Shown here in pieces: positions 22,732-25,131 of a DNA stretch of 44,109 nucleotides (its first letter is position 1; every line of letters begins with the position of its first letter). Under the pieces are notes generated by a model. That model did no database searches and was not told where the DNA came from. It saw nothing but the letters and a program-made list of their open reading frames with translations. Location: the NCBI GenBank assembly GCA_947474495.1, contig CANJIM010000019.1, forward strand, positions 1-44,109, written 5' to 3'. Made by a program: the position numbers and the translations under genes. This DNA is from Rhodospirillaceae bacterium. GTDB taxonomy: Bacteria > Pseudomonadota > Alphaproteobacteria > SMXQ01.

Positions 22732-22806
22732 TGGTGGGCGCGACAGGGATTGAACCTGTGACCCCTACCATGTCAAGGTAGTGCTCTACCGCTGAGCTAC
22801 GCGCCC
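22732..22806 (-). tRNA. tRNA-Val (GAC)
   Basis: On the minus strand the sequence folds as a full cloverleaf: acceptor GGGCGCG (22806-22800) with CGCGCCC, D-arm GCTC-AGCGGTA-GAGC, anticodon stem CTACC/GGTAG around loop TTGACAT (anticodon GAC), short variable region GGGTC, and T-arm ACAGG-TTCAATC-CCTGT. The discriminator is A and the CCA end is encoded (22734-22732). It reads GUC and GUU valine codons. No integrase gene is nearby, so there is no sign that this tRNA is an occupied attachment site. Confidence 0.97.
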
Positions 22807-23033: not shown

Positions 23034-23954
23034 ATGTCCTTAGGCGAACAGAGTTCAGGCCCGGCGATCCAAGCAGTATCGGTCGGCAGCGACGACAATC
23101 CCGTCTGCGAAGTGCTGGAGCCCGCGCGGCAAAGCTTGGCCGCCGTCTTCGCCTCGCCGCATAGCGGCGATCGTTATCCCGACGAATTCATCGCCGCCTC
23201 GCGCCTCGATCCGCATGCGCTGCGCCGCTCCGAAGACAGCTTTGTCGACAAGATCTACGGCGCGGCACCCGAGCTCGGCGCGCCGCTGCTGCGGGCCTTC
23301 TTTCCGCGCGCCTACATCGATCCCAATCGCGAGCCGTTCGAGCTCGATCCGGAAATGTTCGAGGACGAGCTGCCGTCCTATGTCAACGCTACCTCGCCGC
23401 GCGTTGCCGGCGGGCTCGGCACCATCGCCCGCGTCGTCGCCAACGGCGAAGAAATCTACAAGCGCAAATTGCGCTTCGCCGAAGCGGCCGATCGCATCAA
23501 TGCGCTCTACCGCCCCTACCACCGCACGCTGCAGGGACTGATCGAACGGACGCGCGAGCAATTCGGCTACTGCTTGCTGGTCGATTGTCATTCGATGCCG
23601 TCGGTCGGCGGACCGATGGACCGCGACGCCGGTTTGCGCCGCGTCGATATGGTGCTCGGCGATTGTTTCGGCGCCTCTTGCGCGCCGGAGGTCACGCAGA
23701 CGGTGGAAGCGGCGCTGACCGATCTCGGCTACCGCGTGACGCGCAACATGCCCTATTCGGGCGGCTTCACCACGGTGCATTACGGCCAGCCGGCGGCGCG
23801 CGTGCATGCCCTGCAGATCGAGATCAACCGCGAGCTTTACATGGACGAACAGCGGTACACGGCGAAGCCCAAACTCGCCACCCTCACCGCCCACATGGGC
23901 GAGGTCATCGCGCTGCTGAAAACCCGCCTGCCGGACTTAATTGGTAGGAAATAG
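23034..23954 (+). CDS. N-formylglutamate amidohydrolase family protein
   Basis: A 306-residue member of the same FGase family as the 12228-13019 gene, but from a different branch. Family blocks are FASPHSGDRYPDEFIAAS with the first metal histidine, DPNREPFELDPEMF, LLVDCHSMPS with a second histidine and PYSGGFTTVHYG, then HALQIEINRELYMDEQ with the glutamate. Characterised members are zinc enzymes releasing formate from N-formylglutamate. This branch, beginning with a roughly 35-residue leader before the first block, is widespread in alphaproteobacteria and its substrate is not certain. There are no hut genes around it. The ATG at 23034 is the only plausible start. It is monocistronic. Confidence 0.85.
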   Translation: MSLGEQSSGPAIQAVSVGSDDNPVCEVLEPARQSLAAVFASPHSGDRYPDEFIAASRLDPHALRRSEDSFVDKIYGAAPELGAPLLRAFFPRAYIDPNREPFELDPEMFEDELPSYVNATSPRVAGGLGTIARVVANGEEIYKRKLRFAEAADRINALYRPYHRTLQGLIERTREQFGYCLLVDCHSMPSVGGPMDRDAGLRRVDMVLGDCFGASCAPEVTQTVEAALTDLGYRVTRNMPYSGGFTTVHYGQPAARVHALQIEINRELYMDEQRYTAKPKLATLTAHMGEVIALLKTRLPDLIGRK

Positions 23955-24018: not shown

Positions 24019-24133
24019 AAAAAAATAGGGCCGCGCAAGCGCGGCCCTGAAGTCTAGGGAGGAAACGCCCAAGAAGGGTGTTTACGAACAGAGGGCGCAT
24101 ATCCCTCGTTCGCCCAATAAGAGTGGCACTGTT
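24019..24133 (-). ncRNA. Candidate small RNA with three hairpins and an exposed anti-Shine-Dalgarno motif
   Basis: Minus-strand transcript of about 114 nt in a 337-bp intergenic gap. In order from the 5' end: hairpin A (24112-24085; CGAAC/GTTCG plus AGGG/CCCT); hairpin B (24083-24063; AAAC/GTTT plus CCC/GGG around TTCTT); an unpaired CCTCCC (24062-24057); and a terminator hairpin (24048-24027; AGGGCCGCGC/GCGCGGCCCT, whose innermost pair must open to leave a 4-nt loop) followed by seven T (24025-24019). A promoter-like pair stands just upstream. There is no good open frame in it and no minus-strand gene that the terminator could otherwise serve. The arrangement is that of trans-acting alphaproteobacterial sRNAs that mask ribosome-binding sites. 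Targets are unknown. Confidence 0.62.
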
Positions 24134-24138
24134 CCTGA

Positions 24139-24168
24139 CCTATATCAACTGTTTTATATAAGAGTCAA
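24139..24168 (-). promoter_or_regulatory. Promoter of the candidate small RNA
   Basis: On the minus strand TTGACT (24168-24163) and TATAGG (24144-24139) are 18 nt apart; using ATATAG (24145-24140) gives 17 nt. The start point would fall at about 24132, matching the 5' side of hairpin A. Confidence 0.55.
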
Positions 24169-24291: not shown

Positions 24292-25131
24292 ATGACCCAG
24301 ATCACACATCCGCGCACCCCCTTCCTGGCCCTTGTTTTCGGCTTTGCCGTCCTATGGGCCGCTGCCGTCAGCACGCCGCTGTCGGCCGCCCCGATTACGC
24401 CACAAGTATTTGATACAAATAAGAAATCCTGCGTCACGCCGATCGCTCGCCAGGAACGAATCTATGGCATTCCGAGCCAGTTGCTGGCTGCCGTGTCGCT
24501 GGCCGAGTCGGGCCGCTGGGACAAAGAAAACTCGGCAAGTTTTGCCTGGCCCTGGACAGTCACTGCCGAGGGCAAGGGGCAATTCTTCGCCAGCAAGGCC
24601 GAAGCCATCGCCCAGGTGCAGGCGCTCAAAGCGCGCGGCATCCGCAACATCGACCTCGGCTGTATGCAGATCAACATGCAATACCACCCGGACGCCTTCC
24701 CCGATCTCGAGACCGCCTTCGAGCCCGAGAGCAACGTCGCCTATGCCGCCAAATATCTGCGCAGCCTGTTCGACGACAGCAAGTCGTGGATCACCGCCGT
24801 CGGCAATTACCACTCGGCGACGCCGGAATATCACTTCCGCTATCGCGCCAAGATCACCGAATTGTGGGGCAAGTCGCGCCGCCAAAGCGCCGAGGAGCGC
24901 CGGCTGGACGTCGCGGCCGCCTATCAGGAGCGCCGCGCCGCCGCCGCGGCAAACCAGACAGCGCGCGCGCCGCTCGACACGAGCGTCCGTCCGCCGCTGA
25001 TGGGGGCGACCAGCGTCGCCGCCAATCGTCCGTCCGCCGCCCCCGCAATGATGCCGGTCGCCGCCGGCCGCCCGATACCGGTCGGCCAGGTCATGCCCCG
25101 CACGACCGCCGTGCCGCTGTTCCGCCGCTGA
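24292..25131 (+). CDS. Lytic transglycosylase (SLT domain) protein
   Basis: A 279-residue exported murein hydrolase. A signal peptide (LALVFGFAVLWAAAVSTPLS, cleavage near residue 33) is followed by a lysozyme-like SLT domain: GIPSQLLAAVSLAESGRWDK with the catalytic glutamate E72, DLGCMQINMQYHPDAF corresponding to the GLMQI motif, NVAYAAKYLRSLFDD, and AVGNYHSATPEYHFRY. Such enzymes cleave peptidoglycan between MurNAc and GlcNAc with 1,6-anhydro ring formation. The last 90 residues are Ala/Pro/Arg-rich and probably disordered or wall-associated. It stands alone, so a link to flagellar or secretion assembly is possible but not shown by context. Confidence 0.87.
   Translation: MTQITHPRTPFLALVFGFAVLWAAAVSTPLSAAPITPQVFDTNKKSCVTPIARQERIYGIPSQLLAAVSLAESGRWDKENSASFAWPWTVTAEGKGQFFASKAEAIAQVQALKARGIRNIDLGCMQINMQYHPDAFPDLETAFEPESNVAYAAKYLRSLFDDSKSWITAVGNYHSATPEYHFRYRAKITELWGKSRRQSAEERRLDVAAAYQERRAAAAANQTARAPLDTSVRPPLMGATSVAANRPSAAPAMMPVAAGRPIPVGQVMPRTTAVPLFRR

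Follow-up and report, generated by a model that had tools for sequence, protein, structure and literature searches.

We asked whether the minus strand of positions 24,019 to 24,168 in a contig of a Rhodospirillaceae bacterium from the order SMXQ01 (the whole stretch analysed, 44,109 nucleotides, is called the window) encodes a small RNA, to which family such an RNA would belong, and where it would start and act. The alphaR8 RNAs, also named MmgR, SisA or suhB, form a known family that is widespread in bacteria, and they are thought to stop translation of nutrient-use genes by covering ribosome-binding sites. Positions 24086-24013 (-) matched the Rfam model RF00519, titled suhB / 'Makes More Granules Regulator RNA', from end to end (model positions 1-77 of 77) with 66.1 bits and an E-value of 1e-11; membership in this family is defined by a covariance-model score above the curated gathering cut-off of 41 bits. 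The core UUUCCUCCCU at 24065-24056 (-), a putative anti-Shine-Dalgarno seed downstream of a weak hairpin, is identical to the 10-mer described as the core of alphaR8 for Caulobacter SisA-D (PMC12559287). Judged by its sequence, the sRNA of the window is a real gene and a member of the alphaR8 family. Working from the sequence alone, the original prediction had thus picked out a genuine member of a curated sRNA family, and its sRNA reading is supported by this membership. It had, however, treated the RNA as uncharted, whereas Rfam already has a curated entry for the family, and its members in Sinorhizobium and Caulobacter have been studied. The additional copy leaves the picture of the family unaltered, and the sRNA is ordinary for its class; what is new is a corrected promoter, an order-specific box and the loss of a PhaR-like motif, all of them small and testable.

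The genes around the sRNA fit this assignment. An N-formylglutamate amidohydrolase (FGase) gene (23034..23954, +; PF05013, Pfam 8.5e-77) converges on it, and a lytic transglycosylase (SLT) gene (24292..25131, +; Pfam 1.7e-7) diverges from it. Most species have an alphaR8 copy adjacent to the FGase gene (PMC12559287), which makes this gene a published synteny partner. Likewise, FGase adjoined alphaR8 in most of the relatives examined, and the lytic transglycosylase gene lay on the far side in many of them. The locus resembles that of SisA in Caulobacter crescentus (PMC12559287) in the same UUUCCUCCCU core, the weak hairpin before it, the Rho-independent terminator, the FGase neighbour and the presence of Hfq in the genome (hfq at G000:C9). 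In contrast to Caulobacter with its SisA-D, the genome of the window has no further copy above the family cut-off. Two candidates for an extra copy were rejected: a weaker RF00519 match at G000:C7:43204 is, by eye, the terminator region after the end of a ribosomal protein S9-like gene, and a second weaker match, at G000:C87:2992, reaches a higher score as a SorX-like RNA, though again below cut-off. With MmgR (alphar8) of Sinorhizobium meliloti, the sRNA shares the full-model RF00519 match, and both genomes contain PhaR and a phasin gene. Within the order, alphaR8 copies above cut-off were present in 9 of 11 genomes, and a tenth copy was truncated because its contig stops within the RNA. The alphaR8 regulator of Caulobacter and Sinorhizobium, together with its FGase linkage, thus reaches the order SMXQ01. 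In one relative, three tandem alphaR8 copies, each above the family cut-off, lie within 600 bp (L008, G043:C7:54432-55030).

The promoter was the part of the original prediction that changed most. A transcript of 114 nt had been proposed to start near 24132 from the hexamers TTGACT (24168-24163) and TATAGG (24144-24139). Both hexamers are present with an 18-nt spacer (24139..24168, -), but as a promoter the pair did not hold: it did not pass a standard sigma-70 consensus scan, is weakened to TTGAGT/TTTAGG within the same genus, and has nothing similar in other genera. A different pair, about 20 bp downstream, is conserved, as all eight order copies carry TTGA(C/T)(A/T) and, after a 17-base spacer, a hexamer with TGN directly before it. 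In the window, the most likely -35 element is TTGATA (24143..24148, -; TTGAYW in 8/8 copies), which lies 17 bp from the -10. The most likely extended -10 is TGC-CACTCT (24120..24128, -), with the TG at 24128-24127 and the hexamer at 24125-24120; the TG and the A2 of the hexamer were found in 8/8 copies and its T6 in 7/8. Because this conserved promoter lies about 20 bp downstream of the pair first proposed, transcription probably starts at about 24114 and gives a predicted RNA of about 95 nt (24020..24114, -; the 5' end plus or minus 2 nt from the conserved promoter, the 3' end from the terminator), so that the start near 24132 and the length of 114 nt are probably wrong. A new kind of sRNA, about 114 nt long and driven by the upstream hexamers, would account for their existence and spacing. 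It is nevertheless improbable, given that the family is known, that these hexamers are unconserved and failed the consensus scan, and that the other promoter is conserved in 8/8 copies.

Assignment to another alphaproteobacterial sRNA family with CCUCCC (AbcR/alphar15, SorX, SorY or BjrC1505) would also explain the combination of this motif with a terminator, and three of these families gave Rfam scores here. All were below threshold: 31.7 against 50 bits for BjrC1505 (RF02356), 15.4 against 46.6 for SorX (RF02784) and 20.9 against 111 for SorY (RF02651), whereas RF00519 scored well above its own cut-off. AbcR1 and AbcR2 are Hfq-type sRNAs with CU-rich anti-Shine-Dalgarno motifs in unpaired stretches (PMC7143759), and the window sRNA is like them in having such a motif in such a stretch. 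However, AbcR1/AbcR2 (alphar15) are a different family with two motifs and tandem genes by lsrB, a layout that the window locus, with its single core and its FGase and SLT neighbours, does not have. As loci that fit these families better occur elsewhere in these genomes, we regard membership of the window sRNA in any of them as very improbable.

One sRNA-like locus in the same genome (L003, G000:C87:1492-4566) is more AbcR-like than the window sRNA. Its RNA, near 1430-1570 of the locus, has CUCCCAGACGUGAAGCCUCCCUGUUAAACUU and a terminator, lies downstream of a LysR-type regulator gene and shows an AbcR-like layout; its best Rfam match is SorX, below threshold at 35.5 against 46.6 bits, and a distance of about 150 nt separates its terminator from an upstream PhaR-like palindrome, TTGCACTGCAGCA. 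L067 is the counterpart entry of this locus in the sister species. Two further loci, L061 (G004:C18) and L066 (G010:C297), are copies of the BjrC1505 family with 51.5 and 51.0 bits against a cut-off of 50. They have a module of CCTCCCTGTTAAACTT plus terminator in common with the SorX-like loci, a shared 3' module in different sRNAs.

Returning to the alphaR8 assignment, the predicted RNA consists of a 5' stem-loop (helix 1; 24084..24113, -) whose structure is conserved while its sequence is not, a second, weak stem-loop, ACCC-UUCUU-GGGC, found by folding upstream of the core (24063..24083, -), and an intrinsic terminator (24019..24048, -) with a 9-bp G+C-rich stem (24048-24027) and U7 (24025-24019). 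CCUCCCUAGACUUC is mostly unpaired in the predicted fold of the minus strand. Re-reading and folding therefore recovered everything that had been listed for the RNA body, namely two stem-loops, the pyrimidine stretch CCUCCC, a GC-rich terminator and U7, in that order. The 115-nt segment folds at -43.8 kcal/mol against a shuffle mean of -32.0 (z -3.2), which beats 199 of 200 dinucleotide shuffles. The mean unpaired probability of the core 9-mer is 0.53 in the window copy compared with 0.85-0.95 in several relatives; the first core bases of the window copy can pair with an upstream AAAC, which counts against an exposed core.

Comparison of the order copies indicated that the structure is under selection. 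Across eight copies and 25 pairs, 9 pairs had two-sided changes (shuffle mean 5.0) in 21 cells (shuffle mean 8.0), and none of 500 shuffles reached either the pair or the cell count; 95.5% of cells were paired compared with 39-55% when the partner was slid. The structure was taken from the same alignment as was tested, which favours it over the slid versions, and sequences that share ancestry can exceed shuffles, so these counts lend support but should not be read as a probability. Six of the nine two-sided pairs fall in the 5' hairpin (6/10 pairs of helix 1, with 90% of cells paired), where the sequence is free to change while pairing is kept, and the remaining three fall in the terminator (3/10 pairs of helix 3). 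The second stem hardly varies, and covariation is thus silent on it, neither for nor against. A lack of covariation in relatives had been named at the outset as what could refute the sRNA, and the test for covariation gave a positive outcome. In an alignment of 22 copies from the class, core positions one to nine did not vary, which is partly by construction, since the core had served to locate the copies.

An 87-aa open reading frame (24100-23837, -) exists at this site, and the locus could in principle be a short coding gene or a dual-function peptide RNA, but the frame begins within the 5' hairpin and continues across the terminator, 4 of 6 copies examined have no ATG at that place and the sequence changes follow pairing, which makes a coding role highly improbable. 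Of the terminator-like matches in the region, that of the sRNA is the strongest. A U-run follows the hairpin on the minus strand alone, with no T-run on the plus side, and the sole minus-strand gene found nearby, tRNA-Val (22732-22806, -), lies downstream of the sRNA, so the terminator is otherwise unexplained; both points agree with what had been noted originally. That the hairpin merely terminates a neighbouring transcript, as its position between two genes might suggest, is hardly credible, since the two neighbours are plus-strand genes and the U-run belongs to the minus strand, and since a terminator would require far less conservation than core and promoter show. We are therefore confident in the combined reading of the locus as an FGase-linked alphaR8 sRNA, an orthologue of SisA and homologue of MmgR, which would be transcribed from an extended -10 promoter with a start at about 24114, end at an intrinsic terminator and block ribosome-binding sites with the aid of Hfq.

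The upstream region of the alphaR8 sRNA differs from what is known of its homologue. In S. meliloti, PhaR (AniA) represses mmgR, and the mmgR promoter contains a PhaR motif (WNWD2NYGCRNYGCRNH2WNW; PMC12542648). Here, no such promoter site was found, and a TTATATAAAAC box lies upstream of the -35 instead. The motif core YGCRNYGCR was sought in alphaR8 promoter windows, with windows from the same loci as controls. It was present in 13 of 22 alphaR8 promoters outside the order, compared with 7.3% of control windows (p about 1e-9), and in 0 of 10 inside the order (p 0.0016 if the copies are independent). As the order is one lineage, this loss may be a single event. The order-specific box, CTTATATAAAAC (24151..24162, -), adjoins the -35 upstream and could be an UP element or a regulator site. 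A search for CTTATATAAAAC with the -35 attached, one mismatch allowed, found a single occurrence in each of 8 order genomes out of 11 (two with one mismatch); seven of these boxes are at alphaR8, and the eighth (G005) is at an alphaR8 copy within which the contig breaks off. Its occurrence once per genome, always at the sRNA, points to a dedicated element and not to the box of a large regulon.

PhaR itself is encoded in the genome of the window, and the single phasin gene found there has TGCAATGCA and TGCAGTGCA upstream. Together with the lack of the motif at the sRNA, this means that the PhaR circuit seems intact while the sRNA seems to have left PhaR control. We tentatively propose, as a possibility that we hold to be somewhat doubtful, that the alphaR8 sRNA of this small order no longer belongs to the PhaR (carbon-storage) regulon and is instead controlled by a dedicated promoter element, TCTTATATAAAACATTTGAC, found nowhere else in these genomes. 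These patterns would suggest that transcription was rewired with the anti-Shine-Dalgarno action unchanged; if true, a conserved sRNA retained its seed while its input signal was swapped.

By homology with SisA, the sRNA would act as an anti-Shine-Dalgarno, Hfq-assisted repressor. In Caulobacter, the UUUCCUCCCU core of SisA was shown to pair with mRNA 5'UTRs, and a single C40G change in the core removed the roughly six-fold repression that SisA exerted on a reporter (PMC12559287). Core pairing on Hfq and repression have been shown in Caulobacter only (PMC12559287), and repression of a SisA target reporter through the same 10-mer (PMC12559287) supports the anti-Shine-Dalgarno role first suggested for the window RNA. 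We infer that the sRNA is expressed in the source organism, where its exposed UUUCCUCCCU core, with Hfq, would base-pair with ribosome-binding sites rich in G and A and would keep genes for nutrient uptake and catabolism from being translated.

Targets were sought by sequence pattern searches only, and the genes below are candidates only, because Shine-Dalgarno sequences naturally resemble the complement of the core. The best predicted target, at G000:C58:11516, has TAGGGAGGAAACGCCC just before its GTG start, with 16 perfect pairs and a duplex energy of -41.3 kcal/mol. It encodes a TENA/haem-oxygenase-like protein with multiple paralogues in sister genera. In the sister species the site persists with one G-U pair, but the pairing extends no further than the genus, within which the flanking DNA is conserved as well; beyond it, no more than a partial match was seen. 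The start of a TctC-type binding protein gene (G000:C58:14401) contains the complement of the whole 10-mer. Both genes belong to a catabolic-looking cluster (G000:C58:10413-16423; L096:2414-8424) of LysR, TENA/haem-oxygenase-like, SDR, one further protein, TctC receptor and DHDPS-like genes, in which two translation starts thus have a perfect core complement. Further near-matches precede genes for a second substrate-binding-like protein (without a Pfam match), an E1 dehydrogenase component and a cupin.

The sequence AGGGAGGAAA occurs 14 times in the genome. Nine matches belong to one repeated element and two are translation starts; the others are the sRNA's own antisense strand, a pyrG-like coding sequence and an RNA that we take, by eye from its GAGGAAAGTCCGGGCTCC motif, to be RNase P RNA. 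Unlike Caulobacter with CrfA, no exact-complement sponge RNA was found among all 14 AGGGAGGAAA sites; an imperfect sponge RNA is possible. The repeated element, whose end GCAATGGCGAGGGAGGAAATAATGCACTAACATTTAACCTGGACCACCTAATGGGGGCCGATC bears the exact complement of the sRNA core, occurs near many contig ends (G000: C49:25806, C69:12833, C77:94, C82:11720, C93:94, C99:54, C109:95, C116:92 and C121:94) and is probably an insertion sequence at which the assembly broke off.
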